From: Acidobacteriota bacterium
GTDB taxonomy: Bacteria; Acidobacteriota; Terriglobia; Acidiferrales; UBA7541
Direction: 5' to 3'
Length of the DNA: 64,000 bases
Assembly (NCBI GenBank): GCA_003223295.1
Contig: QHYM01000121.1
Coordinates: 1 to 64,000 of the forward strand
Positions 11,681 through 37,036 of this stretch are shown in pieces. The notes beneath the pieces were generated by a model. It did not search any database, was not told the DNA's origin, and saw only the letters and a program-made list of their open reading frames with translations. Within the stretch, counting starts at the first letter, position 1. Each line of letters begins with the position of its first letter. Both the position numbers and the translations under genes were made by a program.

Positions 11681-12052
11681 ATGACGGATTCGGGCTTACA
11701 TACCTATGCTCCACTTCTCCTACACCTGCTGATTGCCACCGGGCTCGCCGGCGCGTTGACGGCAGTTTCCGTTCTCGTGGGGTGGCGGCGGCCGAGCCGA
11801 GCGAAGCAACAGGCGTATGAATGCGGCATGGAACCCACAGGTGACGCGCGGGAACCCTTCTCCGTAAAGTTTTACCTCGTGGCGATGGTCTTCATTTTAT
11901 TCGACGTGGAAGCCATCTTTCTGTACCCCTGGGCCTACATCTTTCGCAGTTTACGCTGGTACGGCTTTGTGGAGATGATGATCTACATTGCCGTTCTCCT
12001 GGTCGGTTATCTTTATCTTTGGAAAAAGGGCGCGCTGGACTGGCACAAATAA
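11681..12052 (+). CDS. nuoA: NADH-quinone oxidoreductase subunit A (set 1)
   Basis: A 123-aa, three-helix membrane subunit at the quinone-site end of the complex I membrane arm. The track ORF starts at 11579, but that extension overlaps the promoter; ATG at 11681 (MTDSGLHTYAP) fits family length. The hallmark YECGMEPTGDAREPFSVKFY, with the conserved Cys on the loop near the quinone cavity, and FDVEAIFLYPWA are present. It is the first gene of an 11-gene operon. The gene that normally follows, nuoB, is absent. Confidence 0.95.
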   Translation: MTDSGLHTYAPLLLHLLIATGLAGALTAVSVLVGWRRPSRAKQQAYECGMEPTGDAREPFSVKFYLVAMVFILFDVEAIFLYPWAYIFRSLRWYGFVEMMIYIAVLLVGYLYLWKKGALDWHK

Positions 12053-12060
12053 CGGCGCTC

Positions 12061-12600
12061 GTGGGATTGGAAATTGTGACGGAGTCTTCCAGCCAAAACG
12101 CTAATGTTGTTGTCGAGTGCTTGCGATCGTGGAGCCAACAGGCCGTTGCGGAAGTGATTGAATTCCGGGGCGAAACGACCGTCGTAGTGCCACGAGATTT
12201 GCTTCGGGCCGTCGCGGAGCGTTGCCGCGCCGATGCCAAGCTGCAGTTCAACCTGCTGACCGACGCTACCTGCGTGGACCGCTACCCGGTTGAGCCGCGG
12301 TTCGAATTGAACTACCACCTGGTGTCCATCCCCAGACGCGACAAGGTGCGGTTGCAGGTGCAGTTGAGCGGCCAAGATCCTGTGGTGGATTCGCTGGTGC
12401 CAGTTTGGCCGGGAGCCAACTGGTTGGAACGGGAGATTTTCGACCTGTTTGGCATTCGGTTCAGCGGACACCCCGATTTGCGTCGAATCCTGCTTCCCGA
12501 AGATTGGGAAGGCTATCCGTTGCGCAGAGATTATCCGGTGGAAGGCTTCCGCGACGTGCCGAGCACCGGAGAGCTTTTCAAAAAGAGCAGCATGCTATGA
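12061..12600 (+). CDS. nuoC: NADH-quinone oxidoreductase subunit C (set 1)
   Basis: A peripheral-arm subunit (30-kDa homologue). The start is uncertain: the track uses TTG at 12019 overlapping nuoA, while GTG at 12061 (8 nt after the nuoA stop) or GTG at 12076 avoids that overlap; none has a clear ribosome site. From 12061 it is 179 aa. The C-terminal half carries PVWPGANWLEREIFDLFGIRFSGHPDLRRILLP with GYPLRRDYP, the family signature. It is separate from NuoD, unlike in E. coli. The last codons overlap nuoD (ATGA). Confidence 0.9.
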   Translation: MGLEIVTESSSQNANVVVECLRSWSQQAVAEVIEFRGETTVVVPRDLLRAVAERCRADAKLQFNLLTDATCVDRYPVEPRFELNYHLVSIPRRDKVRLQVQLSGQDPVVDSLVPVWPGANWLEREIFDLFGIRFSGHPDLRRILLPEDWEGYPLRRDYPVEGFRDVPSTGELFKKSSML

Positions 12601-13793
12601 CAACCGTGGAAACCGTTACCGGCGCAGCCAAGACGATGGTCCTCAACATGGGACCGCAGCACCCTTCGACGCATGGCGTGCTGCGCATTTTGCTGGAGCT
12701 GGACGGCGAAACGGTGGTGAAGGCCGTACCTGACCTCGGTTATCTGCACACCGGCATCGAAAAATCCTGCGAAGACAAAACGTACTCGCAAGTTATCACG
12801 CTGACCGACCGGATGGATTATCTGAATCCGCTGGGAAACAACTTGGTGTATTGCCTGGCGGTGGAAAAGCTGCTGGGCCTGGAAGTGCCCAAGCGCGCGC
12901 AATACATTCGCGTAATGATGGTGGAGCTGCAAAGGATCTCCTCGCACTTGGTATGGCTGGGAACGCATGCCATCGACCTGGGAGCGATGTCCGTATTTCT
13001 CTATTGTTTCCGCGAGCGGGAAGAGATTTTGAACATTTTCGAAATGTTCGCCGGCCAGCGGATGATGACCAGCTATATTCGCATCGGCGGAGTGGCTCTG
13101 GACCCACCGGCGGGCTGGCGGCAGGCCGTGGACAAATTCTTGCGCATGATGCCTAGCCGCGTGGACGAATACGAGACGCTGCTCACGCAAAACCCCATCT
13201 GGATCGGGCGCACCAAGGGCGTCGGGTATATTTCACCGGAAGACGCGATTGCCCTGAGCATGACCGGCCCGACGCTGCGCGCGGCGGGGGTCGCATACGA
13301 CAACCGCAAGGTATTTCCCTACTCCAGCTACGGGGAATTCAAGTTTGAAGTGCCTACGCGCACGGAATCGGATTGCTACGCGCGGTACCTAGTGCGCGTG
13401 GCGGAGATCCGCGAAAGCCTGAAAATCGTCCGGCAGGCCATGGAAAGAATTCTCGACGAAGGACCCATCAAGGCGGAAGCGCCGGGGATCATCCCGCCGC
13501 AGCGCGAAAAGATGAAGACGGAGATGGAAGCGCTCATCTACCACTTCAAGATTTTCACCGAAGGATTCTCGCCGAAACCGGGCGATGCGTTCGTATCCGT
13601 AGAATCGCCGCGAGGCGAGCTGGGATGCTTCGTGGCCAGCGACGGCTCGCCAAAACCGCTGCGCGTGCACTTCCGATCACCATCGTTCATCAATTTGCAA
13701 GCCCTGCCGAAACTCATCGAAGGGCAATTGATCGCGGACGTGGTTGCGTGCATCGGGACGATTGACATCGTGCTCGGAGAAGTCGACAGGTAG
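12597..13793 (+). CDS. nuoD: NADH-quinone oxidoreductase subunit D (set 1)
   Basis: A 398-aa, 49-kDa-type subunit that forms the quinone pocket together with Nuo[15 protein letters not shown] near the N-terminus carries the quinone-binding His, and CEDKTYSQVITLTDRMDYL carries the matching Tyr. The ending [13 protein letters not shown] is typical. The track start at 12405 overlaps nuoC; ATG at 12597 gives an ATGA overlap with the nuoC stop. The sequence looks complete and conventional, so absence of a neighbouring nuoB is not explained by decay of this subunit. Confidence 0.96.
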   Translation: MTTVETVTGAAKTMVLNMGPQHPSTHGVLRILLELDGETVVKAVPDLGYLHTGIEKSCEDKTYSQVITLTDRMDYLNPLGNNLVYCLAVEKLLGLEVPKRAQYIRVMMVELQRISSHLVWLGTHAIDLGAMSVFLYCFREREEILNIFEMFAGQRMMTSYIRIGGVALDPPAGWRQAVDKFLRMMPSRVDEYETLLTQNPIWIGRTKGVGYISPEDAIALSMTGPTLRAAGVAYDNRKVFPYSSYGEFKFEVPTRTESDCYARYLVRVAEIRESLKIVRQAMERILDEGPIKAEAPGIIPPQREKMKTEMEALIYHFKIFTEGFSPKPGDAFVSVESPRGELGCFVASDGSPKPLRVHFRSPSFINLQALPKLIEGQLIADVVACIGTIDIVLGEVDR

Positions 13794-13795
13794 CC

Positions 13796-15610
13796 ATGGA
13801 ACTTTCCCCCAAACTTTCGGCGAAATTCGAAAAACTGCAAACCAGCTATCCGGTGAAGCGCAGCGCGCTGATCCCCATGCTGATGTACGCGCAGGACGAA
13901 TTCGGCTACATCAGCGATGAAATGATCGACGAGATTGGACGGCGGCTGGACTTGAACAACGTCCAAATCGAGGAAACCCTGGCCTACTACTCGATGTTGC
14001 GGCGCAAACCCATGGGCAAGCATCACGTGCAGATTTGCACCAACGTGGCGTGCATGCTGAAGGGCGGCTACGAAGTGCTCCAGCGCGCCAAAAAGCGGCT
14101 GGAGATTGGGCACAAGGAAACCACGCAGGACGGCGTGTTCTCGCTCGAAGAAGTCGAGTGCATCGGCGCGTGCACGGGCGCACCGGCCATGCAGGTGAAC
14201 TACGACTTCTACGAAAACCTGACGCCGCTGAAATTCGACCGCATCATCGAGGACCTGGATGCAGGAAAACGGCCCGAACCGGAGCCCGTAATTTCCGGAG
14301 CGCTACACGACCGGAACGTCCTCGAGACGCCGCTCATCAGCAGGCGCTGGGGGATGAAGGATTCGCACAAGCTGGACGTGTACGTGATGCAGGGCGGCTA
14401 CCAGGCGCTGCACAAGGCGCTGAAAGAAATGACGCCGGAATCGATCATCGAAGAGGTGAAGAAATCGAGTCTGCGCGGGCGCGGTGGCGCGGGCTTCCCC
14501 ACGGGGATGAAATGGTCGTTCGTGCCGAAAGATTCGCCAAAACCGAAGTACGTGATTTGCAACGCCGATGAGTCAGAGCCGGGCACCTGCAAAGACCGGC
14601 CGTTGATGGAGATGGATCCGCACCAGCTGATTGAAGGCATGGTTATCGCGGGTCGCGCCATCAACTCCCACCAAGGCTTCATTTACATTCGCGGCGAATA
14701 CCGCTACGTGCTGGACATTGTGGATGCGGCCATCGCGGAAGCGTATGCCGGCGGTTATCTGGGAAAAAATATTTTTGGGTCGGGAGTTGATTTTGATCTG
14801 CTGATTCACACTGGCGCTGGCGCGTATGAATGCGGCGAAGAATCGGCGCTGATGGAATCGCTCGAGGGCAAGCGCGGCTATCCGCGCATCAAGCCGCCGT
14901 TTCCCGCCGTCGTGGGATTGTACGGCTGCCCGACGATTATCAACAACGTGGAGACGCTGAGCGCGGTGCCTGCGATTATCCGTGAAGGCGGTGAAGCCTA
15001 TGCCAACCGCGGCACTCCAAAAAATGGCGGAACGCGCATGCTGTGTATTGCGGGGCATGTCAAGAAGCCCGGGATTTACGAAGTGCCACTCGGCATGAAC
15101 ATGAAGAAGTTCATTTACGAAGTGGCCGGAGGAATTGCGGAAGGAAAAAAACTGAAGGCCGTGATCCCCGGAGGAAGCTCTTGCCCGCTGCTGACCGCCG
15201 ACGAGATTGACATCCCGATGGATTACGATTCGCTGGCGAAGGCCGGCTCGATGCTCGGCTCCGGCGGCATGGTGGTGATGGACGAAGACACGTGCATGGT
15301 GGATATGGCTCGCCGCATCATGCATTTCTACGCGCATGAATCGTGCGGGTGGTGCATTCCCTGCCGCGAAGGAACCACTTGGCTGCGCAAGACGCTGGAG
15401 CGATTTCACGCCGGGCTGGGCCGCGAAGAAGACATCGATCTCATCGCCGACCTGGCGAAAAACATGCTCGGGCGCACGTTCTGCCCGCTGGGCGATGCGG
15501 CGGCCATGCCAACGATCAGCATCCTGAAGAAATGGCGCGGAGAGTTTGAGGATCATTTGAAGGGACGTTGCGCTTACAAATCCGCTGGCGCGCTGGTTGG
15601 TGCAAGGTAA
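13796..15610 (+). CDS. nuoEF: Fused NADH dehydrogenase subunits E and F (NuoE-NuoF)
   Basis: One 604-aa polypeptide joins two subunits normally encoded separately. Residues 1-155 are NuoE (thioredoxin-like); cluster N1a ligands are C81 and C86 (CTNVAC) and C122 and C126 (CIGAC). A linker of about 30 residues (GKRPEPEPVISGALHDRN) leads to NuoF: GRGGAGFPTG binds NADH, NADESEPGTCKDR belongs to the FMN site, and SCGWCIPCREG with the later TFCPLGD supplies the four cysteines of cluster N3. All cofactor ligands are intact. The gene starts 2 nt after nuoD. This is the NADH-input module; the second nuo set has no counterpart. Confidence 0.95.
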   Translation: MELSPKLSAKFEKLQTSYPVKRSALIPMLMYAQDEFGYISDEMIDEIGRRLDLNNVQIEETLAYYSMLRRKPMGKHHVQICTNVACMLKGGYEVLQRAKKRLEIGHKETTQDGVFSLEEVECIGACTGAPAMQVNYDFYENLTPLKFDRIIEDLDAGKRPEPEPVISGALHDRNVLETPLISRRWGMKDSHKLDVYVMQGGYQALHKALKEMTPESIIEEVKKSSLRGRGGAGFPTGMKWSFVPKDSPKPKYVICNADESEPGTCKDRPLMEMDPHQLIEGMVIAGRAINSHQGFIYIRGEYRYVLDIVDAAIAEAYAGGYLGKNIFGSGVDFDLLIHTGAGAYECGEESALMESLEGKRGYPRIKPPFPAVVGLYGCPTIINNVETLSAVPAIIREGGEAYANRGTPKNGGTRMLCIAGHVKKPGIYEVPLGMNMKKFIYEVAGGIAEGKKLKAVIPGGSSCPLLTADEIDIPMDYDSLAKAGSMLGSGGMVVMDEDTCMVDMARRIMHFYAHESCGWCIPCREGTTWLRKTLERFHAGLGREEDIDLIADLAKNMLGRTFCPLGDAAAMPTISILKKWRGEFEDHLKGRCAYKSAGALVGAR

Positions 15611-15635
15611 AAGTCAAAGGGCGCGATAGGAATCC

Positions 15636-17873
15636 ATGCCAGACCAGAAACTCATCAAGCTGAAGATTAACGACCGCGAAGTGCAGGTGCCGCAGGGCAC
15701 GCTGGTCATTGAAGCGACGCGGCGGCTCGGAACGGAAGTTCCGTCGTTCTGCTATTACCCGGGGCTGTCCTTGCAAGCCGCGTGCCGGATGTGCCTGGTG
15801 GAAATTGAGAAGGCGCCGAAACTGCAGACCGCGTGCACGATGGTGGCGACCGACGGTATGGTTGTTCGAACGGATACCGAGCAGGTTCGCCAGGCGCGCA
15901 AGTACATGCTGGAGTTCCTGCTGACCAATCACCCGCTCGACTGCCCGGTCTGCGACAAAGGCGGCGAGTGCGAGTTGCAGGACATGGTGTTTCGCTACGG
16001 CGCGGACTCCAGCCGCTTCGTGGAAGAAAAAATTCACCGCCCGGAAGAAAAGTGGTCGGAGCTGGTGTATTACGATGCCCCGCGATGCATTTTGTGCTTC
16101 CGCTGCGTGCGCGTTTGCGACGAAGGCATGGACGTGAAAGCGCTTGGCGTGGGCATGCGCGGCGCGAACAGCGTGATCATCCCGAACCGAGGCGATCACC
16201 TCGAGTGCGAAGAGTGCGGGATGTGTATCGATATCTGCCCGGTGGGCGCACTCACGAGCGGGACGTATCGCTACAAAACGCGGCCGTGGGAGATGCAGTA
16301 CGTACCGACAGTTTGCGCGCACTGTTCCAACGGATGCAAAACCACGCTGAGCGTGCGCAATCACGAGATTCTGCGCGCGAACAACCGCGACTTGAGCGGA
16401 ATCAACGGTGATTTTTTGTGCGTCAAAGGACGCTTCGGCTTTGATTTCACGAATCACAAGGAACGCATTCGCCAGCCGCTGGTTCGCAGGGGCGACAAGT
16501 TGCTCCCCGTTTCCTGGGAGGAGGCGGCACAAGCCGCGGCAACGAAACTGAAAGCGGCTCATGACGCCGGCGGAAAAGAAGCGATCGGCTTCATTGGTTC
16601 GAATCGCACGTCAAATGAAGAGAATTACCTGTTGCAGCGCCTGGCGCGCGCGACCTTTGGAACCAACAACATCGATCACCACCGCACGGCGGATTATGCC
16701 GGACTCATCACGGCGCTTGGAGATCGCGCCGCCGATTCCCTTCTCACCATGGAACAGCTGTATCGATCAAAAGCTGTGCTCGTGATTGGCAACGATCCTT
16801 CCAATCAGAACCCGCTGGTGGCGTGGCAAATTCGCAGCGGCATCCGCCATTTCGGGACCAAGCTATTCCTCATCAATGCAAACGAAATCAAGCTGAAGCA
16901 CAAAGCACAGCAATTCGTGAAAATTGCCCCGGGGCAGGAAGCCGCCATCTTCAAGTGGCTGGCGCACGAAGAAGGGCAACTCCTGACTGAACTCGTCGAG
17001 CAACTCGTGCAACTCAAAGCTGCGCTTGAAGCGGAAAGCGACTTGGCAATTGTCTTTGGCGCGGAACTTTACGGAGCGGCCATCGCCACTCTCGTGGCCT
17101 TCGGCTCCAAGCTCCCTGGCAAGGCGCGCTACATGGCGCTCGGCGATTATTCCAATTCACGCGGCGCTGCGGACATGGGACTCTTGCCGGATCGATTCCC
17201 CGGCTACGCGTACGTTGGCGATCCGCACGCGCACGAATCTTTTGAGAAGTTGTGGGGTTGCGGACCGATCCCAACAACGCCGGGACTGACCGCGCCACAG
17301 ATGGTGGAGGCCGCGCAGTCCGGAAAGCTGAAGGCCCTTTACGTCGTAGGCGCGAACCCCCTGGTGCACTTTGGGAAACTCAGTGAAGGGCGCGGGAAAC
17401 TCGATCTGCTCATCGTACAGGAGATGTTCTTGACGGAAACCGCGAAAGCGGCGGACATTGTTCTTCCGGCGGCTTCCGCCTACGAAAAAGACGGCACGGT
17501 CACGAACACTTCCGGCGAAATGCAATTGGTGCGCAAGGGCGCCGAAGTGATGGGCCCGCGCAGCGACTTTGACCTGATGCGCATTCTTTCGCATCAGCTC
17601 GAGAAACTGGGACTCGGCAAAGCGTTCCATTACAAAACGCCTGGTGCGGTGTTCGAAGAAATCCGCAAAGCCGTGCCCGCTTGCAACGTGCCGCTGGCGG
17701 GCTTGCTGACCGGAGGCGCAGAGGCGACGCGCGCCCAATTCTCCCGCAATGGCCATGCTCCGTATGACATCCCCGTGGGGCTGATTCGCTCCGCCAACGA
17801 CACACTTTTCACCAGCGGCACGCTCGGCCGCTGGTGCACCATGATGGAATCTTTGCCCGAGGCGGACACCTAG
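15636..17873 (+). CDS. nuoG: NADH-quinone oxidoreductase subunit G (set 1)
   Basis: A 745-aa, 75-kDa-type iron-sulfur subunit of the NADH module. In order: an N-terminal [2Fe-2S] domain (PSFCYYPGLSLQAACRMCLVE and a later Cys, N1b); CPVCDKGGECELQ; CILCFRCVRVC and CEECGMCIDICPVGAL for N5 and N4; then CAHCSNGCKTTLSV plus a downstream Cys, the optional N7 site near the molybdopterin-like domain. The C-terminal molybdopterin-oxidoreductase-like domain spans about residues 280-700. N7 ligands are retained, which not all bacteria do. It lies 25 nt after nuoEF. Confidence 0.95.
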   Translation: MPDQKLIKLKINDREVQVPQGTLVIEATRRLGTEVPSFCYYPGLSLQAACRMCLVEIEKAPKLQTACTMVATDGMVVRTDTEQVRQARKYMLEFLLTNHPLDCPVCDKGGECELQDMVFRYGADSSRFVEEKIHRPEEKWSELVYYDAPRCILCFRCVRVCDEGMDVKALGVGMRGANSVIIPNRGDHLECEECGMCIDICPVGALTSGTYRYKTRPWEMQYVPTVCAHCSNGCKTTLSVRNHEILRANNRDLSGINGDFLCVKGRFGFDFTNHKERIRQPLVRRGDKLLPVSWEEAAQAAATKLKAAHDAGGKEAIGFIGSNRTSNEENYLLQRLARATFGTNNIDHHRTADYAGLITALGDRAADSLLTMEQLYRSKAVLVIGNDPSNQNPLVAWQIRSGIRHFGTKLFLINANEIKLKHKAQQFVKIAPGQEAAIFKWLAHEEGQLLTELVEQLVQLKAALEAESDLAIVFGAELYGAAIATLVAFGSKLPGKARYMALGDYSNSRGAADMGLLPDRFPGYAYVGDPHAHESFEKLWGCGPIPTTPGLTAPQMVEAAQSGKLKALYVVGANPLVHFGKLSEGRGKLDLLIVQEMFLTETAKAADIVLPAASAYEKDGTVTNTSGEMQLVRKGAEVMGPRSDFDLMRILSHQLEKLGLGKAFHYKTPGAVFEEIRKAVPACNVPLAGLLTGGAEATRAQFSRNGHAPYDIPVGLIRSANDTLFTSGTLGRWCTMMESLPEADT

Positions 17874-17875
17874 CC

Positions 17876-19105
17876 GTGCGCGCGCTCTTAACCACCAACG
17901 CCGAGCTGGTCATTACGATTGTCAAAATCGCGCTGTTACTGTTCATCGTGCTCACGGTGAACGCCTACCTGACGTGGTTCGAACGCAAAGTGGTGGCGCA
18001 CATCCAGTCACGCTGGGGCCCTCACCGCGTCGGCCCGCACGGTCTGCTCCAGCCGCTGGCCGACGGCTTGAAGTTTTTGTTCAAAGAAGACCCGACACCG
18101 GCGGGCGTGGATAAATTTGTTTATTTCCTGGCGCCGTTGCTGGCGCTGGCGCTGGCGTTGACCTCCATCGCCATCATTCCGTTTGGGCCGGATCCCATCC
18201 GCCTCTTCGGCCACGACATTTACCTGGGCATTGCGCCGCTGAATTTGAACATCGGGATTCTCGCGCTCTTTGCCATCACCGCGCTGGGTGTTTATGGCGT
18301 TGCGCTTGCCGGCTGGTCGTCGAACAGCAAGTATCCGCTTCTAGGTGGGCTGCGCAGCTCGGCGCAAATGATCAGTTACGAATTGGCGCTGACCATGTCC
18401 GTGGTGGGCGTCCTGCTGATGGCGGGCAGCTTCAACTTGCGCGACATTATCAACGCGCAGGCGCGTCATCCCGAACGGGGCATTCTCGGCTGGAACATTT
18501 GGCCGCAGATTCTCGGCTTCTTCTGTTTCTTCACGGCAGCCGTAGCCGAAACCAACCGCGTGCCCTTCGATCTGCCTGAAGCCGAGTCCGAGCTTGTCGC
18601 CGGTTTTCACACCGAATACGCCAGCTTCAAATTCGCGATGTTTTTCATCGCGGAATACACCAGCATGATCACTGTCTCGTGTCTTTGCACCATCATGTTT
18701 TTCGGCGGCTGGCTGTCTCCCTTCCCTGCTTCCTGGACGGTCACGCATTATTTGCCTTCAGTGATTCTGATTCCTTTCGGGCTATGGGTCATTATGGACG
18801 GCGTCCGGTACGAAACCATTTTCGGCCGGCTCGTTTTGCCTGCCATGGGAACGGCCATCACCGCCCTTGGCCTGGTTCTCATCGTGTTTCCCCAAGTCAA
18901 TGCGTTCATCCAGGCGCCCTTCTGGCTGCTATCGAAAATCCTGACCTTCCTGTTCGTTTACGTGTGGATGCGTGGTACTCTGCCGCGTTTCCGCTACGAC
19001 CAGTTGATGGCTTTCGGATGGAAACTGCTTCTGCCCCTCTCCATCGTGAATGTGATTCTGACTAGCTTCGTGATCCTCGCGAAGATGCAATGGGGTGCGC
19101 AATGA
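17876..19105 (+). CDS. nuoH: NADH-quinone oxidoreductase subunit H (set 1)
   Basis: An eight-to-nine-helix membrane subunit at the junction with the peripheral arm. It begins at GTG 17876, 2 nt after nuoG; the track's 17834 start lies inside nuoG. At 409 aa it has the expected WFERKVVAHIQSRWGPHRVGPHGLLQPLADGLKF loop, GGLRSSAQMISYE and AETNRVPFDLPEAESELVAGFHTEY, which carry the acidic residues of the E-channel leading from the quinone site. It ends in an ATGA overlap with nuoJ. The usual neighbour nuoI is missing. Confidence 0.95.
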   Translation: MRALLTTNAELVITIVKIALLLFIVLTVNAYLTWFERKVVAHIQSRWGPHRVGPHGLLQPLADGLKFLFKEDPTPAGVDKFVYFLAPLLALALALTSIAIIPFGPDPIRLFGHDIYLGIAPLNLNIGILALFAITALGVYGVALAGWSSNSKYPLLGGLRSSAQMISYELALTMSVVGVLLMAGSFNLRDIINAQARHPERGILGWNIWPQILGFFCFFTAAVAETNRVPFDLPEAESELVAGFHTEYASFKFAMFFIAEYTSMITVSCLCTIMFFGGWLSPFPASWTVTHYLPSVILIPFGLWVIMDGVRYETIFGRLVLPAMGTAITALGLVLIVFPQVNAFIQAPFWLLSKILTFLFVYVWMRGTLPRFRYDQLMAFGWKLLLPLSIVNVILTSFVILAKMQWGAQ

Positions 19106-19605
19106 CCGCGCCGCTCGTGGTTTTCTTTGGGCTGGCGGCGCTCGCGGTCATCGGCGCGGTCAGCCTGATTCTGCAAAAGCACCCGATTCACAGCGCGCTT
19201 TCGCTCATCGTCGTGATGGTCGCGCTCGCCGGGCTGTACCTGCTGATGGGCGCGGAGTTCGTCGCCGCCGTGCAGATCATCGTCTATGGCGGCGCGATCA
19301 TGGTGCTTTTCGTTTTCGTGATTATGCTGCTGAATGCCGGCGTGGAAGAACATACCAGCCTTTCGAAGATGGCGGGCCCGCCAGGGCTGCTTCTCGTGCT
19401 CGCGCTTGCGGGATTCATCGCCGCAACCGTCGCGAGGTCCGGAGCGAGCGTGCAGGCTGCGACACAAACCGGCGCGCTGTCTTCCACCAAAGGGATTTCG
19501 GAGATGGTCTTCAAGGACTTCGTTTATCCCTTCGAATTGACCTCGTTCCTGGTTCTTGTGGCGATTCTGGGCGCAACCGTTCTAGCGCACCGGGAGAAAA
19601 GCTGA
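19102..19605 (+). CDS. nuoJ: NADH-quinone oxidoreductase subunit J (set 1)
   Basis: A 167-aa, five-helix subunit; ATG at 19102 overlaps the nuoH stop by 4 nt, and the track's earlier start adds three codons inside nuoH. The third-helix motif VAAVQIIVYGGAIMVLFVFVIMLLN, whose pi-bulge helps gate proton coupling, is intact. The hydrophilic stretch between helices 4 and 5 (SGASVQAATQTGALSSTKG) is longer than average. Confidence 0.93.
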   Translation: MTAPLVVFFGLAALAVIGAVSLILQKHPIHSALSLIVVMVALAGLYLLMGAEFVAAVQIIVYGGAIMVLFVFVIMLLNAGVEEHTSLSKMAGPPGLLLVLALAGFIAATVARSGASVQAATQTGALSSTKGISEMVFKDFVYPFELTSFLVLVAILGATVLAHREKS

Positions 19606-19606
19606 G

Positions 19607-19909
19607 ATGGTCCCGACGAACTATTACGTGATTCTGAGCGCGGTTTTGTTTGGCCTGGGAGTGTTTGCGTTCATTTTCAAGCGCAACGTCATCACCATTT
19701 TCATGTCCATCGAGTTGATGCTCAACGCCGTGAATCTCGCGTTCGTGGCCTTTAGCCAGGCGCTCGGCAAACTGGACGGACAAGTTTTCGTTTTATTCGT
19801 AATTGTGGTCGCGGCGGCGGAAGCGGCCGTGGGCCTGGGAATCATCATCCTGATTGCGCGCAACCGGCAGACGCTCAATGTCGAGCGCGTGGACCTGCTC
19901 AAACTCTGA
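19607..19909 (+). CDS. nuoK: NADH-quinone oxidoreductase subunit K (set 1)
   Basis: A 100-aa, three-helix subunit. MSIELMLNAVNLAF holds the conserved membrane glutamate, and VVAAAEAAVGLGIIILI holds the second one. Both residues belong to the central proton path. It starts directly after nuoJ and its stop overlaps the nuoL start (ATGA-type). Confidence 0.95.
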   Translation: MVPTNYYVILSAVLFGLGVFAFIFKRNVITIFMSIELMLNAVNLAFVAFSQALGKLDGQVFVLFVIVVAAAEAAVGLGIIILIARNRQTLNVERVDLLKL

Positions 19910-25309: not shown

Positions 25310-25414
25310 CACTGCCTCCTTATGAATGCCGCCAGGAGGTGGTTACCGGACACCGTGCAGCCGGGCTCACACTGGAGCGGCACCTTGCCGGCAACCCTCA
25401 CCGGCAAATACTGG

Positions 25415-26233: not shown

Positions 26234-26262
26234 TTTCTGCCACTCGTGAGAGGCTTAGCCCC

Positions 26263-26691: not shown

Positions 26692-26708
26692 GGTTTGCTG
26701 CCTAGAGT

Positions 26709-26951
26709 TCAGCGAAATCTCCGGGCAATCTCGAGAATTCCACCGGCAAAGCCAAGACATCCAAAGACGATCATCAACCATGGAGCCGTGTGCAACCACT
26801 GATCGAGAAAATAGCCAATCAGTCCGCCGACCACGACGACCGCGACAAATGTGAACGGCAATTCCATCGCTGTCGCAAGCTGAGATGAGGTGGACTTCGC
26901 CTTCTCAGGTTTCGGTGATTGGGGGCTCTCCGGCTTATCGTCCGAGGGCAT
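26709..26951 (-). CDS. atpZ: AtpZ/F0F1-ATPase gene-1-type membrane protein
   Basis: An 80-aa protein from ATG 26951. A charged N-terminus (DDKPESPQSPKPEKAKSTS) precedes two helices containing VVVVGGLIGYFLDQWLHTAPWLMIVFGCLGFAGGILEIAR, the AtpZ pattern (GxxxGxxxD). It probably acts with AtpI in Fo assembly or cation supply. Its start lies 17 nt inside the end of nuoN of set 2, so translation of the ATP synthase genes is physically tied to the nuo genes. Confidence 0.8.
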   Translation of the reverse strand: MPSDDKPESPQSPKPEKAKSTSSQLATAMELPFTFVAVVVVGGLIGYFLDQWLHTAPWLMIVFGCLGFAGGILEIARRFR

Positions 26952-28563: not shown

Positions 28564-28572
28564 GCGTCCGGC

Positions 28573-30150
28573 TTATTTCGTTTCCGCCATCGCGGCAGGA
28601 ACTTCCGCGGGAGGCAATTTTGCGCGCTCCATCTGGTAAAAATTGGGATTCACCTGCCGGACGATGCTTTCGACGGGTTTATCGATGAGCGCAAAAAACG
28701 GTTTTGGATAAATGCCGATCCAGAAGGCCAGAAAAATCAGCGGGATTAGCGTGGCCATCTCGCGCAGATTCAAGTCCGGCAAATGTTCATTGGCGGGTTG
28801 GGTGACCGGGCCAAACATCACGCGCTGGTAAAGCCACAGCAGGTAGGCCGCGCCCAGAATCACACCGAGGGTGCCCCAAGCCGCCCAGGCCTTGCTGACC
28901 TGAAACGCGCCTTGCAGAATCGTGAATTCTCCGATGAAGCCGTTCAGCAGCGGCATCCCCAGCGAACTGAGGCTGATAATCAGATACACCGCGGCAAAGT
29001 TCGGCATGGGCGTCGCCAGGCCGCCGAACTCCGAGATTAAGCGTGTGTGCCGCCGCTCGTAGAGCACGCCGACAATCAAGAAGAGCGCGCCCGTCGAGAT
29101 GCCATGGTTGATCTGCTGAAGCACGCTGCCGGCGAGGCCGTTGGGCGTGAGCGCAAAAATTCCCAGCGTACAGAAACCCAAATGGCTGACCGAGCTGTAG
29201 GCAATCAGCCGCTTCATGTCCTTTTGCATGAGGCAAACCAGCGCGCCGTACACGATGCCAATCAGTGAAAGTACGATGACCACCTGGATGATGCGCGAGC
29301 GCATCGGGCCGTCTGCCGGCAGGAGCGGAAGGGAAAAGCGGATGAAGCCGTACGTTCCCATCTTCAGCAAAACGCCGGCCAGAATCACGGAGCCCGCCGT
29401 GGGCGCTTCGGTGTGCGCGTCCGGCAGCCAGGTGTGGAACGGGAACATCGGCACTTTAATGGCAAAGGCGAAGAAGAAGGCCCAGAACAGCCAAACCTTT
29501 AGCGGATCGGAGAAAGTCTGTGCCCCTTTAAGCAGCGTTGGTACATCGAACGTGCGCGTCGCGCCTGGCTCCACTGGCGCGTAGAAGTACAGCGCCAGAA
29601 TTCCGAGCAGCATGACCACTGATCCCGCCAAGGTGTACAGGAAGAACTTGATGGCTGCGTAGAGCCGCCGGTCGCTTCCCCAAACGCCGATGAGGAAGTA
29701 CATGGGAACCAGCATCACTTCCCAGAAAACGTAAAAGAGGAAGAAATCCAGCGACACAAACACGCCAATCATGCCGGTCTGCAACAGCAGCAACAGAATG
29801 TAGTATTCCTTGGTGCGCTGGTGAATGGCGCTCCAGGAAGAGAGGATTGCAATCATCCCCAGGAACGTAGTGAGCATGACCAGCAGCAGGCTGATGCCGT
29901 CGATTCCCAGGTGATACCGCGCCCCAATCGTAGGAATCCACGCAACGTTTTCCTGAAACGAGAACGGGTCCGGCCCAGGTTTCCACCAGCGAACCAAGGG
30001 AATGGAAACGAGAAAACCGAGCACGCCGAAGATGTTGCCGGCGATCTTGTGCGCCATCTCCGCTTCGCGGGGAATAAACAGCAAGAGAATTGCGCCCACG
30101 AGCGGCGTGAAGAGAACTACGCTCAAGATGTGATTCGCAAAAAAGTCCAT
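28573..30150 (-). CDS. nuoM: NADH-quinone oxidoreductase subunit M (set 2)
   Basis: A 525-aa antiporter-like subunit, complete and in one frame. FLFYVFWEVMLVPMYFLIGVWG carries the TM5 Glu, HTWLPDAHTEAPTAGSVILAGVLLKMGTYG the Lys region, and YERRHTRLISEFGGLATPMPNF shows what the frameshifted stretch of the set-1 copy should look like. It lies 9 nt upstream of nuoN and 10 nt after nuoL. Confidence 0.96.
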   Translation of the reverse strand: MDFFANHILSVVLFTPLVGAILLLFIPREAEMAHKIAGNIFGVLGFLVSIPLVRWWKPGPDPFSFQENVAWIPTIGARYHLGIDGISLLLVMLTTFLGMIAILSSWSAIHQRTKEYYILLLLLQTGMIGVFVSLDFFLFYVFWEVMLVPMYFLIGVWGSDRRLYAAIKFFLYTLAGSVVMLLGILALYFYAPVEPGATRTFDVPTLLKGAQTFSDPLKVWLFWAFFFAFAIKVPMFPFHTWLPDAHTEAPTAGSVILAGVLLKMGTYGFIRFSLPLLPADGPMRSRIIQVVIVLSLIGIVYGALVCLMQKDMKRLIAYSSVSHLGFCTLGIFALTPNGLAGSVLQQINHGISTGALFLIVGVLYERRHTRLISEFGGLATPMPNFAAVYLIISLSSLGMPLLNGFIGEFTILQGAFQVSKAWAAWGTLGVILGAAYLLWLYQRVMFGPVTQPANEHLPDLNLREMATLIPLIFLAFWIGIYPKPFFALIDKPVESIVRQVNPNFYQMERAKLPPAEVPAAMAETK

Positions 30151-30160
30151 TCTTCGCCTC

Positions 30161-32284
30161 TCAGCGCGCCCCGCGCAGCACTACATGGAGGTGTTGTTGG
30201 TAATACGCCAGCAGAATCACCAGCCCGACCAAAATCAACAGCGCGTAACTCGAAAACGTGCCCGTTTGCAAAAATCGGATTGGAAAACTTAGGAGCTGCG
30301 TCAGCTTGGCGCCGAAATTCAGTAGCCCATCGATGATCCACTTGTCCCACCACATCGAAAGCGTCGAGCCAAAGCGCGCCAGCCATCCCGTGCCATCTAC
30401 GCCCAGGCCATCAATCACTTTCGCATCAAACTGGCCGAGCAACGTCCCAAGGTCCTTCGTTCGGTTCACGAACATCGCGTCATAAATCTCGTCGACGTAA
30501 TATTTGTGGAAGAGCACGCGGTAGAAGCCGCTCATTTTCCCCGCAATCAATTCCGGTGCGAACCTCTTTGTGCGGTAGAACTCATACGCGAGCCAAATGC
30601 CGCCAATGGCAACGGCAATGGAAGCGAACATGAGGAAATATTCGGTCGGCGACGTCTGTGAAACGGCTTTCGCAGATTCTGTCCCCGCTCCAGCGGTGGA
30701 CAAAACGGGCTCAAGAAACTTCTCGAATTGGTTGCTCCCGCCCAGGGCCGCGGGCCAGCCAATCCATCCGCCGACGATCGAAAGCACTGCAAGAATCATG
30801 AGCGGGATGGTCATCGACTGCGGTGATTCGTGAACGTGTTTCTGGGCGTGATCATCGGCGCGGGAATAGCCGAAAAACGTGAGGAACACCAGCCGGAACA
30901 TGTAGAACGCGGTCATACCAGCGGTGACGAAGCCGACAATCCACAAAGCGGGGTGCCTTTCGAACGCACCTCCCAGAATTTCATCCTTGCTGAAAAATCC
31001 CGCCAGAGGAGGAATCCCCGCAATCGCGAGGGTTGCGACGAAGAACGTTCTTGCGGTGACCGGAATCTTGTCCCACAAGCCGCCCATTTTTTGAATGTCC
31101 TGCTCGCCGGACATGGCGTGAATCACACTGCCCGCACCGAGAAACAAGAGCGCTTTGAAGAAAGCGTGCGTCATCAGATGAAAAATGCCGGCCGCGAATG
31201 CGCCTGCGCCGAGCGCCAGAAACATGTAGCCAAGCTGACTGATGGTGGAGTACGCGAGGACTTTCTTGATGTCGTTCTGTACCAGCGCCATGGATGCCGC
31301 GAAAATCGCCGTGACCACGCCGACCACAGCGACAACGTCCATGGCCTTCGGCGCAAGCTGGTAGACGGCGTTCATCCGCACAACCATATACACGCCGGCG
31401 GTCACCATGGTGGCCGCGTGGATCAAAGCGCTCACCGGCGTGGGACCTTCCATGGCATCGGGGAGCCAGACGTACAGCGGAATTTGTGCGGACTTCCCTG
31501 CCGCGCCAACAAATAGCAACAGCGCAATCGCCGTCAGGACGGGCGCTCCCACGGCCAGGGCATGGGCGCCCAGCGCTGCCTCCAAAGCTTGCCGGATTCC
31601 CAAATTTGCCGCGACATCGGCCAGTCCCGCCGAAGTAAAGCGGATGGTGCCGAACGTCACGGCCGTCAGTAAAATGCCGAGAATGAATCCAGAGTCCCCA
31701 ATGCGGTTCACGATAAACGCTTTTTTGCCGGCATCGGAGGCGGACTTCTTCAAGAAGTAAAATCCGATCAGCAAATAGCTGCACAGCCCGACGCCTTCCC
31801 AGCCAACGAACATGAGCAGCATGTTGTTCGCCAGGACCAGCGTCAGCATGGAGAACATGAACAGGTTCATGTAGCCGAAGAAGCGGTAGTAGCCGCCTTC
31901 ATGCCCCATGTAGCCGATCGAATATATATGGATGAGGAAGCCGACGCCGGTAACCACCAGCACCATGACGCAGGAAAGCGGGTCGAGCAGATATCCCCAG
32001 TCGGCGGTAAAGCGTATCAGGTGCCCGGTACTCAACTGCATCTGGCCCGGCGTGAGCCATTCGAAAAGGACGTGCTGCGCGACGCGGTTCTCCGGATCGG
32101 CAGCCAACAATTGCGTCACCGCGCCCAGCGCGAAGGCGAACGACAGTCCCACACTGCCGACGCAGAACACGCTGACCGCGGCATTGGGAAGCCGCCGGCC
32201 CACAAAAAGCATCAGCGCCGCCGTTACCAGCGGAAACAGCGGGATGAGCCACAGGTGCTCGAGGAAAAACCCCGATGGCGTCAT
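30161..32284 (-). CDS. nuoL: NADH-quinone oxidoreductase subunit L (set 2)
   Basis: A 707-aa distal proton-pumping subunit with the C-terminal lateral helix and anchor. FVGWEGVGLCSYLLIGFYFLKKSASDAGKKAF and GKSAQIPLYVWLPDAMEGPTPVSALIHAATM match the set-1 copy closely, but the stretch between (IRFTSAGLADVAANLGIRQALEAALG) is longer. All pumping residues are retained. It follows nuoK by 40 nt. Confidence 0.96.
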   Translation of the reverse strand: MTPSGFFLEHLWLIPLFPLVTAALMLFVGRRLPNAAVSVFCVGSVGLSFAFALGAVTQLLAADPENRVAQHVLFEWLTPGQMQLSTGHLIRFTADWGYLLDPLSCVMVLVVTGVGFLIHIYSIGYMGHEGGYYRFFGYMNLFMFSMLTLVLANNMLLMFVGWEGVGLCSYLLIGFYFLKKSASDAGKKAFIVNRIGDSGFILGILLTAVTFGTIRFTSAGLADVAANLGIRQALEAALGAHALAVGAPVLTAIALLLFVGAAGKSAQIPLYVWLPDAMEGPTPVSALIHAATMVTAGVYMVVRMNAVYQLAPKAMDVVAVVGVVTAIFAASMALVQNDIKKVLAYSTISQLGYMFLALGAGAFAAGIFHLMTHAFFKALLFLGAGSVIHAMSGEQDIQKMGGLWDKIPVTARTFFVATLAIAGIPPLAGFFSKDEILGGAFERHPALWIVGFVTAGMTAFYMFRLVFLTFFGYSRADDHAQKHVHESPQSMTIPLMILAVLSIVGGWIGWPAALGGSNQFEKFLEPVLSTAGAGTESAKAVSQTSPTEYFLMFASIAVAIGGIWLAYEFYRTKRFAPELIAGKMSGFYRVLFHKYYVDEIYDAMFVNRTKDLGTLLGQFDAKVIDGLGVDGTGWLARFGSTLSMWWDKWIIDGLLNFGAKLTQLLSFPIRFLQTGTFSSYALLILVGLVILLAYYQQHLHVVLRGAR

Positions 32285-32324
32285 GCGAATTTCTTTCCTT
32301 GCATCGTCATTTCGTAGCGCGCCA

Positions 32325-32627
32325 CTACCACTTCAACAAATCCATTTCGTCCGCCAAAACAGTTTCGCGGTTGCGGAAAAACGCGATGATGATCCCCAAT
32401 CCGACTGCGGCTTCCGCGGCTGCATCCGCGATAATGAACAGCGCGAAGACCTGGCCTGCCACATCTCCGTAAAGACGTGAGAACGCCACCAAATTGATGT
32501 TCACCGCGTTCAAAATCAGCTCGATGGACATCAACACCACGATCACATTGCGCCGCGTGACCACGCCGATCACCCCAACAATAAAAAGCGCGAGCCCGAG
32601 AAAAAGATAATGTCCAATCGGAAGCAT
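32325..32627 (-). CDS. nuoK: NADH-quinone oxidoreductase subunit K (set 2)
   Basis: A 100-aa, three-helix subunit. MSIELILNAVNINLVAF and ADAAAEAAVGLGIIIAFF hold the two conserved glutamates. Lies 6 nt after nuoJ. Its intact acidic residues show that set 2 is under selection as a proton pump. Confidence 0.95.
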   Translation of the reverse strand: MLPIGHYLFLGLALFIVGVIGVVTRRNVIVVLMSIELILNAVNINLVAFSRLYGDVAGQVFALFIIADAAAEAAVGLGIIIAFFRNRETVLADEMDLLKW

Positions 32628-32633
32628 GTATCC

Positions 32634-33152
32634 TTATGCCCTCTTCTTTGCCATCACCACCGCGCCGATCATGGCCACCAACAACAAAACCGATGCAATC
32701 TCGAACGGCAACAGATAACTTTCAAACAAGCTCCTTGCCACCGCCTCGGAATTTGGCGGCAGCTTATCCACGGGCGCAGCCACAAGCACGGGCATGCCCT
32801 GCCCGGGCATTTTCCCGGTCGACCAAAGCATCAGACCCACCTGTGCCGCCAGCGCCAACGAGATCAGCATCGCCACCCATTTCTGCCGCGCAAATTGCAA
32901 TTGGCGCACTGCCACGTCCAGGTTCACCAGCATGATCACGAAAACGAAAAGCACCATGATCCCGCCGACGTAAAGAATGATCTGCACGATGAACAAGAAT
33001 TCCGCGCGCAATTGCAAGAAGATTCCGGCGGTTGCGAGCAGCGCAGTAATGAGAAAGATGGCACTATGCACGACATTCCGCCGCGTGACCGTCAAAATCG
33101 CACTGACCACGGCGATCGCCGCAAAAAAGTAAAAGATCACTTGATCAAGCAT
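32634..33152 (-). CDS. nuoJ: NADH-quinone oxidoreductase subunit J (set 2)
   Basis: A 172-aa, five-helix subunit. ATG at 33152 (MLDQVIFYFFAAI) is preferred to the track's 33170; it shares the 8-nt overlap ATGCTTGA with the end of nuoH. FLFIVQIILYVGGIMVLFVFVIMLVNLD is the conserved third helix. NuoI would normally lie between nuoH and nuoJ; here these two genes overlap, so there is no room for it. Confidence 0.92.
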   Translation of the reverse strand: MLDQVIFYFFAAIAVVSAILTVTRRNVVHSAIFLITALLATAGIFLQLRAEFLFIVQIILYVGGIMVLFVFVIMLVNLDVAVRQLQFARQKWVAMLISLALAAQVGLMLWSTGKMPGQGMPVLVAAPVDKLPPNSEAVARSLFESYLLPFEIASVLLLVAMIGAVVMAKKRA

Positions 33153-34521
33153 AAGGATCCGGAGCGGCACCGCCGGCCTGCTGCCGCTCGCTCTTCTGCT
33201 CCATGGCCAAAATGAACAGCGCCACGATTAGCGCGATGATGGATGCGGGAATCGTGGCCAAAAGCAGCCACCCGCCTTCCAGATGCAAATACGACCCCGC
33301 GATCATGGCAATCCCGATCAGCAGCACGTTGATAATGGACAGGGGAATCAGAAAATGCCAGCCGAGGCGCATCAACTGGTCGAAACGGTAGCGCGGGATC
33401 GTGAAGCGCAGCCACATGAAGAAATAAAGGTACGCGCTCACTTTGAAAATAAACCAGAAGCCGCCGTGAATGCCCTCGTAGAAGGGCTTTGCCGCGGAAG
33501 CCAACAACGGGTTTACAAACGGTGTCCGCAATAGCACGGGCGCGGCAAGGACCACGGCCACCGTAAAACACAAGCCCGCCACGGCCAGCATAAACAATTG
33601 CTGCACCCGCGCCGGCTGCTTGGGCGTGCGCATCAGACAATAGACGCCAATGGCCACCAACAAGAGCGGTGGCAGAAAGTCGATAAAATCCAGCCAGTGC
33701 GTTCTCGGAAACGGCCGCAACCAGCCGCCAAGAAATAGAGTCGTCGCGACCGAAGCGACCACAATCATGTTCGTGTACTCGGCAAGAAAATAAAGCGACC
33801 AGCGGAAGCCGCTGAATTCCGTCATGTAACCGGCCACCAACTCGGATTCCGCTTCCGGCAAATCAAATGGCGCGCGATTCGTTTCGGCGATGGACGCCAC
33901 CAGGTAAACGAAAAACGCCACCGGCGCGAGTAATCCAAACCACATGCCCTGTTCGTGCTGCGCTTGCACAATCGAAGTCATATTCAGCGTGCCGGCAAAC
34001 AACAACCCGCACACCAGCGCCATGCCCGCTGCCGTCTCGTAACTTACCAGTTGCGCGGAACTTCGCAGCGCGCCCATCAGGGAATAGTGGCTGTTCGACG
34101 CCCATCCACCCAGCACGATTCCGAAGATTCCCAAGGCGCTCACACCAACGACAAAAAGGATTCCGATATTGATGTCTTTCGCGATTTGGAACGCCGGCCC
34201 GATCGCCAAGCCCGCCATCGCCAGCAGCGCCGCCCCAACGGAAAGCACCGGCGCGAGCCAGAAGACCAGTTTGTCTGCGTCGTCCGGAATAATGTCTTCC
34301 TTGATCAGTAGCTTCACGGCGTCGGCAATTGGCTGCAGCAAGCCGTGCGGCCCCACGCGCATCGGCCCCAGCCGCGCCTGCATATCCGCCATCAGCTTGC
34401 GCTCCACTAAGACGACGTAGCCTACAATCAGCGGAAGAACCGCAACGATGGCCAGCCCGCAAACCAGCGGCGCCCAATACTGGTTCACGAATTCCAACGT
34501 GGCTTGCGTTAAGCCTTGCAT
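33145..34521 (-). CDS. nuoH: NADH-quinone oxidoreductase subunit H (set 2)
   Basis: A 458-aa quinone-site membrane subunit. VERKLMADMQARLGPMRVGPHGLLQPIADAVKLL, GALRSSAQLVSYE and AETNRAPFDLPEAESELVAGYMTEFSGF are all present. It is about 50 residues longer than the set-1 copy, mainly through an extra C-terminal helix and a charged tail (MEQKSERQQAGGAAPDPYA). The inserted hydrophilic stretch MRTPKQPARVQQ in the middle is also absent from set 1. Confidence 0.94.
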   Translation of the reverse strand: MQGLTQATLEFVNQYWAPLVCGLAIVAVLPLIVGYVVLVERKLMADMQARLGPMRVGPHGLLQPIADAVKLLIKEDIIPDDADKLVFWLAPVLSVGAALLAMAGLAIGPAFQIAKDINIGILFVVGVSALGIFGIVLGGWASNSHYSLMGALRSSAQLVSYETAAGMALVCGLLFAGTLNMTSIVQAQHEQGMWFGLLAPVAFFVYLVASIAETNRAPFDLPEAESELVAGYMTEFSGFRWSLYFLAEYTNMIVVASVATTLFLGGWLRPFPRTHWLDFIDFLPPLLLVAIGVYCLMRTPKQPARVQQLFMLAVAGLCFTVAVVLAAPVLLRTPFVNPLLASAAKPFYEGIHGGFWFIFKVSAYLYFFMWLRFTIPRYRFDQLMRLGWHFLIPLSIINVLLIGIAMIAGSYLHLEGGWLLLATIPASIIALIVALFILAMEQKSERQQAGGAAPDPYA

Positions 34522-34572
34522 CCGTTCCCCATCACCCCAGCGGCACTCAACCTGTCTTTCAAGTTCACCACC

Positions 34573-35703
34573 CTACCGATCCACTTCACCCAAAACAATG
34601 TCCAGTGTTCCAATGATGGCCACCACGTCTGCCACCAAGTGTCCCCGCGCCATCTGGTCAAACGCCTGCAAATTCACAAACGACGGCGGCCGGATGCGCA
34701 CGCGATACGGCTGCACCGTCCCATCGCTGATGACGTAGTAGCCCAACTCGCCCTTTGGCGCTTCAATGGCGTGATAGACCTCGCCCGGCGGCGGCTTCAG
34801 AACCTTGCCCACTTTCGCCATAATCGGCCCGGCGGGAATGTTCTCGATCGCCTGCAGGCAAATCAGGCGCGACTGCCGCATCTCTTCCATGCGCACGAGA
34901 TACCGGTCGTAGGTGTCACCGGTCGTGCCCACTGGAATTTCGAACTTGTACTGATCGTATGCCGCGTACGGCATCGCTTTGCGGATGTCCCACTTCACTC
35001 CGCTGGCGCGCAGCACCGGCCCCGTTGCGCCAATTGCGATGGCATCGGCGGCCTTTAAAATCCCAACGCCCTTGGTGCGCCCCAGCCAGATGCGGTTTTG
35101 CGTCAGCAGCTCTTCGTAATCGCCGATGCGCGATTCGAAAGCTTTGCAAAAACGCTCGACGTCTTTTTCCAGTGTGTCATACGCCTCATACTGCAGCCCG
35201 CCGATGCGAAACGCGTGCGTGGTCAGCCGCGCCCCGCAATACTTCTCGAAAATCTTCAGGATCTCTTCGCGCTCTCGAAAACAATAGAAAAGCGGCGTGA
35301 GCGCGCCAATGTCCAAGGCATGCGTTCCCAGCCACAAAAGATGGCTGGCAATCCGCTGCAGCTCCGTCAGGATCGTTCGGATCACGCGCGCGCGCGGCGG
35401 CGCTTCCACCATCAGCAATTTCTCGATGGCCTCGCAATACCCCAGGCCGTTGCTGACCGCCGCGACGTAATCCATGCGGTCCACATACGGCGCGAACTGC
35501 TGATACGAGCGGTGCTCCGCGATTTTCTCCACGCCCCGGTGCAGATACCCAATCATGCATTCGGAGCCGATCACGCGCTCGCCATCGAGCTTCAGCTTCA
35601 CGCGCAGCACCCCGTGGGTGGACGGGTGCTGCGGCCCCATGTTCAGTATGAGTTCATCCGCGCCCAGCAGCGTCTTCTGATCAGTTGTTGTCTCGGTGCT
35701 CAG
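34573..35703 (-). CDS. nuoD: NADH-quinone oxidoreductase subunit D (set 2), apparent CTG start
   Basis: A 49-kDa-type quinone-pocket subunit. The track begins at ATG 35640 ([10 protein letters not shown]), but that would remove the conserved residues before it. Upstream the same frame reads [21 protein letters not shown], matching the normal NuoD N-terminus, with CTG (35703-35701) exactly where ATG is expected and a GGAAGG ribosome site 9 nt before it. No ATG, GTG or TTG occurs between this point and the in-frame TAG upstream. From CTG the protein is 376 aa. Quinone residues ([24 protein letters not shown]) are intact. The protein is diverged from set-1 NuoD. Confidence 0.9.
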
Positions 35704-35712
35704 CGTCGTCGT

Positions 35713-35718
35713 CCTTCC
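35713..35718 (-). promoter_or_regulatory. Ribosome binding site supporting a CTG start for nuoD (set 2)
   Basis: GGAAGG on the minus strand, 9 nt upstream of CTG 35703. Good spacing for that codon; no comparable site precedes ATG 35640. Confidence 0.5.
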
Positions 35719-35817
35719 AATCCGACCTTCTTGTTGCCGATGACTTGCCGCTCTTTCGCTTTTCTTTTCCTATTCCCTACTTATGACTGAGAACTGCATA
35801 CTGAAAACTCTCTGTCC

Positions 35818-36492
35818 TCATTGTCCGCTCTCAATGCCCAGGTTTTCTTTCACCCAGCCGGTATCCTGCTCGATGATGTCGTAATCCTTGCGCAGCGGAT
35901 AACCTTGCCACTCGTCGGGCAGCAGGATGCGCGCCAAATTGGGATGGCCGGCGAAGACAATGCCAAACATGTCAAACGCCTCGCGCTCCAGCCAATTCGC
36001 CGTGGGCCAAACGCCAGCGACGCTCGGAACTTCTTCGCCATCGCCGGCGTGAGCCTTCACGCGCAAACGCTCGTTCTTTGCAAAGGAATAAAGGTTGAGC
36101 ACCACGTCGAAGCGCTTCTCGCGCTTCGGCCAGTCCACCGCCGTCAAGTCGGAGAGCAAGTCGAATTTTTCTTCATCGCGCAGATAGAGCGCAATCTCCG
36201 CCAGCCGCCCGCGTTCCACCGCCAGGATCGCCTGTTTGCGGTCCTCAATGGCTTCCACCAGCGCACCGCCGAACTTCGCGCGCACACGCCCAACCAATTC
36301 ATTGTTCAGCGGCGTCTGCAACTGCACCGGCGGCTTCGGTGGCGGAGGCGCGGCCGGCTTCGGAGGCGCAGCGCCCGGTGGCGAAGCCACTGCGGGTTTG
36401 GCAGGAGGAGTGGACGCGGGTGCCGCACTGCTCGCGGGCTTGTCGCCCGCGGGCATGCCGGAAGGCTGTTGTTCCTTGGGTTCGTCGGCCAT
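35818..36492 (-). CDS. nuoC: NADH-quinone oxidoreductase subunit C (set 2) with Pro/Ala-rich N-terminus
   Basis: A 224-aa peripheral-arm subunit. Residues 10-60 are a low-complexity Pro/Ala/Lys tract ([20 protein letters not shown] and [13 protein letters not shown]) that set-1 NuoC lacks. The folded domain starts near residue 62; [42 protein letters not shown] is the family signature. The tract could be a flexible tether. Separated from nuoD by 114 nt and from nuoA by 169 nt, both wider than other gaps in this operon and without another gene. Confidence 0.92.
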
Positions 36493-36661
36493 AGACCTTG
36501 TGCAATGCGGGCGCGGTCACCGTCGTAACGAACGAAGACCCGAATCTCAGACTACAAACGCCCGCGTTTCTAATACACGGCAAAAAACCTGGTCAATCAC
36601 AAGAACTTGGAATGCAATTCGATAGCGCCTGGAAGCAAATGAATCTTCGCGATCTTGGCGA

Positions 36662-37036
36662 TCAAGCCCATTCCAGCGCGCCCTTTTTGTACAGCCACAC
36701 GTATCCAATCAGCAGAATCCCGAGGAACACAAACATCGAAACCAGCGCAAACAGCCCCAGGTGAGCCATCACCCATCCGCGGTACAAAATCGCCCACGGA
36801 ATCAGGAACATTGTCTCCACATCGAACACCACGAACAGCATGGCGATAATGTAGAAGCGCACGGAGTACCGCCCGCGCGCATGCCCTTCCGGGGCAATCC
36901 CGCACTCATAAGGTTTCAGCTTTGCACCGTACGACGTGGAATCCGGCCGTATCAACTTTGCCAGGATGAGCGTCACGGCGGGAAACGCCATTACCAGCGC
37001 GGCATAAATCAATACTGGAAGATAGGCTCCAGGCAT
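36662..37036 (-). CDS. nuoA: NADH-quinone oxidoreductase subunit A (set 2)
   Basis: A 124-aa, three-helix subunit. LKPYECGIAPEGHARGRYSVRFYIIAMLFVVFDVETMFLIPWA contains the conserved Cys loop and the acidic helix. GAGG lies about 5 nt before the ATG. It is the first gene of the minus-strand nuo-atp operon; the next gene is nuoC, so nuoB is missing here too. The 169 nt between them show no ORF resembling NuoB. Confidence 0.95.
   Translation of the reverse strand: MPGAYLPVLIYAALVMAFPAVTLILAKLIRPDSTSYGAKLKPYECGIAPEGHARGRYSVRFYIIAMLFVVFDVETMFLIPWAILYRGWVMAHLGLFALVSMFVFLGILLIGYVWLYKKGALEWA

Follow-up and report, generated by a model that had tools for sequence, protein, structure and literature searches.

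The genes of respiratory complex I are usually taught as one operon, and a single nuo operon in canonical order is typical of the enzyme without being a requirement for it. Within the complex, NuoB carries cluster N2 and NuoI carries clusters N6a and N6b. Loci of the Desulfitobacterium type are also single operons. Cyanobacterial ndh genes are dispersed, and different antiporter subunits can be joined to a common core. Rhodobacter sphaeroides has two non-redundant complexes, each encoded by an operon of its own (PMC4859585, Fig. 1A). A transcriptome paper on Acidobacterium capsulatum names 'nuoAC' and 'nuoABC', not a displacement (PMC11636273). Surveys often score the completeness of complex I by clustering, and one groups hits lying within 250 bp (PMC12361115).

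Two complex I operons in one window

The window (the whole 64 kb stretch of DNA that was analysed, contig C358) belongs to a genome of 6.03 Mb in 481 contigs, a fragmented metagenome assembly that is 95% complete with contamination of about 4.5%. Two complex I loci are arranged tail to tail in it, and ORFs, family searches and tblastn agree on their gene orders. Set 1 (+ strand, 11,681-24,898) reads A-C-D-EF-G-H-J-K-L-M-N and is of the 14-subunit NADH type, and set 2 (- strand, 37,036-26,935) reads A-C-D-H-J-K-L-M-N and is of the 11-subunit type without NuoEFG. An initial annotation made from the window had described two nuo loci that both lack nuoB and nuoI, and all three approaches confirm it.

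In set 1, nuoA (11,681-12,052; NuoA models in NCBIfam and the tblastn map) is directly followed by nuoC (12,019-12,600; TIGR01961 over cut-off) and nuoD (12,597-13,793; TIGR01962, 563 bits), with nuoB absent. The nuoE-nuoF fusion (13,796-15,610; 604 aa) is recognised from its ORF and a Complex1_51K match at 14,456-14,971, and nuoG (15,636-17,873) from its ORF and tblastn orthologues in relatives. The nuoH ORF (17,834-19,105; PF00146, 394 bits) overlaps that of nuoJ (19,090-19,605; PF00499) by 16 bp, with nuoI absent, and the operon continues with nuoK (19,607-19,909; PF00420), nuoL (19,909-21,894; TIGR01974, 776 bits), nuoM (21,894-23,521) and nuoN (23,522-24,898; PF00361, 243 bits).

On the opposite strand, set 2 begins with nuoA (36,662-37,036; NuoA models in NCBIfam), followed after 169 bp by nuoC (35,818-36,492; PF00329), again with nuoB absent, and by nuoD (34,573-35,640; TIGR01962 over cut-off). 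Here the nuoH (33,145-34,521; PF00146, 369 bits) and nuoJ (32,634-33,170; PF00499) ORFs overlap by 26 bp, with nuoI absent, and nuoK (32,325-32,627; PF00420), nuoL (30,161-32,284; TIGR01974, 729 bits), nuoM (28,573-30,150; PF00361, 264 bits) and nuoN (26,935-28,563; PF00361, 211 bits) complete the operon. The succession of nuoA by nuoC where nuoB belongs, and the overlap of nuoH with nuoJ where nuoI belongs, thus stand in both sets as first described. With the two NuoB and two NuoI proteins of the genome as queries, tblastn returned no nuoB or nuoI in the window, and gave no hidden or remnant copy at the A-C and H-J junctions.

The NuoD, H, J, K, L and N proteins of both sets are full-length and match their families, and we share the earlier view of the loci, there described as under selection, as real and conserved. 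The accompanying statement that all other subunits keep their key residues has to be corrected for nuoM of set 1. A short run of T at about 23,010 (window 22,990-23,040) has lost one base, which splits this gene between two frames, and both parts match the NuoM of the congener G066 with 77% identity in tblastn. Because the congener gene is uninterrupted, the frameshift probably stems from faulty assembly or from a recent strain-level lesion, and it has no bearing on the question of nuoB and nuoI. The stretch between the two operons (24,995-26,799) holds the ATP synthase genes I, a and c, and no other ATP synthase genes were seen beside them.

Solo nuoB and nuoI genes and their pairing with the operons

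Whole-genome HMM searches found exactly two nuoH genes, both at the window loci, exactly two nuoB genes, on contigs C33 (nuoB1) and C62 (nuoB2), and two nuoI genes over the NuoI cut-off, on contigs C430 (nuoI1) and C206 (nuoI2). The prediction that nuoB and nuoI lie elsewhere was therefore right, and the copy count proposed along with it, in which two divergent copies would speak for separate complexes, gives that answer. Each of the four genes lies on a separate contig, and no further nuo gene is present in the flanking stretches examined around any of them. An additional copy of either gene could be missing from the assembly, since the genome is in 481 contigs and 95% complete. Both NuoB proteins retain the N2 cysteines (CC, GAC, GCPP) and both NuoI proteins retain two CxxCxxCxxxC motifs. 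These motifs are kept across 37 solo NuoB and 35 solo NuoI proteins, with GVC for GAC in three flagged solo NuoB. NuoB1 aligns with the solved Thermus NuoB (PDB 2fug) through the ligand region, and NuoI2 matches solved NuoI chains. The best named relatives of NuoB1 are Acidobacteriota of Terriglobia type, the top match being a subdivision-2 acidobacterium (83%).

Gene order was mapped in 25 further genomes of the class, as the initial annotation had recommended, and the displacement is kept across the class. Among 43 cases counted in 25 class genomes, closed chromosomes included, nuoB is no more than 12 kb from nuoH in 6 and nuoI in 13. On the closed chromosomes of relatives, nuoB, nuoI and the operon are up to about 1 Mb apart, and in G108, a single contig, they are found at 1.31 Mb, 2.02 Mb and 2.61 Mb, respectively. 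All 23 of the best-matching named acidobacterial nuoB1 loci carry nuoB with no other nuo gene within up to 10 kb on each side. In other classes of the phylum, nuoI occurs within 12 kb of nuoB for 79 of 118 nuoB genes. In Armatimonadota, seven loci (L148, L151, L153, L158, L165, L168, L184) have nuoB and nuoI paired with no further nuo gene in the adjoining DNA examined, a parallel to the present case.

The solo genes have recurrent neighbours. A Rieske ferredoxin gene lies about 100-300 bp downstream of solo nuoB2 on the same strand in 12 genomes of six families (directly downstream at L011, 15,440-15,745), and solo nuoI2 is beside or near tadA in eight genomes of three families. A Pyr_redox_3 flavoprotein gene precedes solo nuoI1 in most of 12 genomes, with parA-parB in several, and solo nuoB1 faces a gene resembling the YgfZ/GcvT family, as judged by sequence inspection only, in 10 genomes. 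This family-level synteny supports long-term maintenance of the solo sites.

In the trees, the two copies of each gene separate with 100/100 support, one joining the type-1 complexes and the other those of type 2. In the bootstrapped trees, the type-2 nuoB clade comprises 20 rows (100/100), with solo and operon copies including that of G026, and the type-2 nuoI clade also comprises 20 rows (100/100), including the G026 operon copy. Type-1 operons are without nuoB and nuoI throughout the class genomes mapped, except for a divergent split set in G026. The type-1-only genomes G070, G108 and G021 have nuoB and nuoI solely of the C33 and C430 types, and the type-2-only genome G133 has them solely of the type-2 kind (C62 and C206 types). 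G026 retains a complete type-2 operon, A-B-C-D-H-I-J-K-L-M-N, in which nuoB and nuoI are of the C62 and C206 types. Because trees, single-type genomes and the G026 operon agree, these sequence comparisons indicate that each complex has its own nuoB and nuoI, set 1 with nuoB1 and nuoI1 and set 2 with nuoB2 and nuoI2, and a shared pair fails. We infer that each complex is assembled with its own pair, and some cross-assembly of NuoB or NuoI between the two complexes may occur. Our main reading, to which we give a probability of roughly 0.92, is that the window encodes two separate isoenzymes with truncated operons, each of which is made whole by relocated nuoB and nuoI genes of its own.

Some arrangements departing from this pattern were also seen. 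In G026 (L094, L017), the genes of a divergent type-1-like complex are scattered: one operon reads A-EF-H-J-K-L-M-N, a 790-aa open frame spans nuoB-C-D, and nuoG and nuoI occupy a separate site. G090 has an extra partial type-1 locus (L039), A-C-D-EF-G-H, that lacks J-N; the nuoD of this locus is nearer to that of the window genus than the other G090 copy is. In G202 (L283), the type-1 and type-2 nuoI paralogues adjoin each other, away from both operons.

The absence of nuoB and nuoI from both operons could be read in other ways. The initial annotation had suggested single copies shared by both complexes, and the lack of B and I copies in either operon is compatible with one pair serving both. 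This is contradicted by the existence of two divergent copies of each gene, each going with one operon type at 100/100, and by the single-complex genomes, which carry solely the matching couple, and we judge sharing to be extremely improbable. An artefact of assembly or binning, with nuoB and nuoI truly in the operons or the solo copies being contamination, might be expected from a metagenome assembly that is fragmented, about 4.5% contaminated and probably frameshifted by error in at least one place. However, relatives with closed or nearly closed genomes, G108, G111, G130 and G135 among them, have the identical arrangement, the solo sites show family-level synteny and the solo copies group with those of congeners in trees. 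The possibility that a better assembly would place nuoB and nuoI inside the loci has likewise not materialised, closed relatives being equally displaced. Because the chromosomes of closed relatives carry the same displacement, we reject an artefact, the probability of which is close to nil. Operons without the subunits for clusters N2 and N6, one of them with a frameshifted nuoM, might also be in decay or encode a proton pump without quinone reductase function, the solo genes then working in something else. The full-length, family-matching NuoD, H, J, K, L and N speak against this, as do the intact operons and solo genes of relatives, which co-vary in copy number, and genomes such as G108 that hold complex I genes solely of this type; it too is exceedingly unlikely. 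Two isoenzymes with their own relocated subunits therefore remain our preferred reading.

Probable order and mode of relocation

Intermediate arrangements differ between the two operon types. Two families of the phylum, f31 and f41, have a type-1 operon that still reads A-B-C-D-EF, with nuoB, but their nuoI already stands alone and clusters with the solo nuoI of the class in the tree. Type-1 operons with nuoB in place also occur in other classes of the phylum (G219, G172, G227, G202). Among type-2 operons, nuoB is solo in G001, G003, G055, G126, G130 and G133 and was taken along with nuoA in G008, and nuoI is still in the operon of all seven genomes; nuoI is also out of the operon in families f1, f3 and f8. 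For type 1, nuoI would thus have left first and nuoB later, in the class, and for type 2, nuoB would have left first and nuoI afterwards in f1, f3 and f8. On the basis of these differing intermediates, the same two genes probably left both operons independently and in opposite order.

That the identical two genes are missing from both operons might instead point to one displacement that preceded the split of the two operons from their common ancestor. A type-2 operon with nuoB and nuoI in place nevertheless survives in the class (G026), type-1 operons with nuoB in place are found in the other classes named above, and the two types lost the genes in opposite order, which makes a single early displacement very unlikely. 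The evidence instead favours independent losses. The relocation is an old rearrangement, class-wide for set 1 and at family level for set 2. Since type-2 nuoA is also displaced in some relatives, nuoB and nuoI are the most mobile genes and not the sole movers.

In the genome G126 (L055, L121), nuoI2 occurs twice, once in the operon and once solo, and the two copies are sisters in the tree (90/80). The solo copy is beside tadA, as in families f1 and f8, and the operon copy has the longer branch and is possibly on its way out. G126 looks like a duplication intermediate, and we infer that relocation most likely began with a duplicate placed at a new site, after which the operon copy was lost. For a single relocation of nuoI2, the AU test gave p = 0.055, and relocation of this gene in several events is possible.

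Predicted enzymes and comparison with known systems

Set 1 with nuoB1 (C33) and nuoI1 (C430) would form an NADH-oxidising 14-subunit enzyme with a fused NuoEF. Together these genes supply NuoA-NuoN, with nuoM frameshifted in the present assembly, and the cluster ligands are in place, namely the N2 cysteines of NuoB and the double CxxCxxCxxxC of NuoI. A single nuo operon in canonical order is lacking, nuoB and nuoI being displaced. Because the relocated proteins keep all cluster ligands, electrons would pass through N6a/N6b in NuoI and then N2 in NuoB to quinone as usual, and the enzyme is predicted to be an ordinary NADH:quinone oxidoreductase. Assembly of a complex from dispersed genes is plausible in view of a 2022 gene-order paper, as it is cited in PMC12361115.

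Set 2 with nuoB2 (C62) and nuoI2 (C206) comprises A-D and H-N without an NADH module. Only three NuoF-like genes are present in the genome, one in set 1, one by a molybdopterin oxidoreductase and one by multihaem cytochromes, and set 2 may use the NuoEFG of set 1. The Rieske ferredoxin encoded beside nuoB2 is a candidate donor of the 11-subunit enzyme, a pairing that is not universal, and the gene pair makes this candidate testable. A bolder proposal has two parts: that the Rieske protein serves the complex lacking NuoEFG as its dedicated redox partner, the relocated nuoB2 marking an electron-input module, and that export of the Fe-S subunits from both operons lets the cell control how each isoenzyme is assembled independently of its membrane arm. 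We regard this combination as unlikely. Elsewhere, the cluster at L268 (contig C411, 1,483-9,393) encodes a NuoEF-like fusion, a 756-aa NuoG-like Fe-S protein with cyclic-nucleotide-binding domains and multihaem c-type cytochromes, a putative unusual NADH- or cytochrome-linked system.

In function these are two ordinary isoenzymes in an unusual genome organisation. In the literature searched, we found no account of dispersed nuo genes for Acidobacteria, and this is no proof that the arrangement has gone undescribed. Genomes like the present one can be miscounted as partial in clustering-based surveys, and the loss of two Fe-S genes in opposite order from paralogous operons is a natural experiment on whether the arrangement of the genes affects assembly of the enzyme.

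Compared with the nuoA-N operon of E. coli and Thermus, set 1 and its solo partners provide all 14 subunits, with E and F fused and the order otherwise canonical, but nuoB and nuoI each stand alone, at two places on the chromosome away from the operon. Set 2 with nuoB2 and nuoI2 has the A-D and H-N content without an NADH module known from the Desulfitobacterium type (PMC11238625), from which it differs in the relocation of nuoB and nuoI and in the Rieske ferredoxin gene that often adjoins nuoB2. As with cyanobacterial ndh, complex I subunits are encoded at several chromosomal sites, whereas the split is a different one here, with one and the same pair of Fe-S genes lost from the operons of two full isoenzymes. 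The presence of two phylogenetically distinct complexes in one cell recalls the paired isoenzymes of Rhodobacter sphaeroides (PMC4859585), where each has its own operon, unlike the present case with nuoB and nuoI outside the operons. Both enzymes are of known kinds, and what is new is that two Fe-S genes of the quinone module have been exported, class-wide, from the operons of two isoenzymes.
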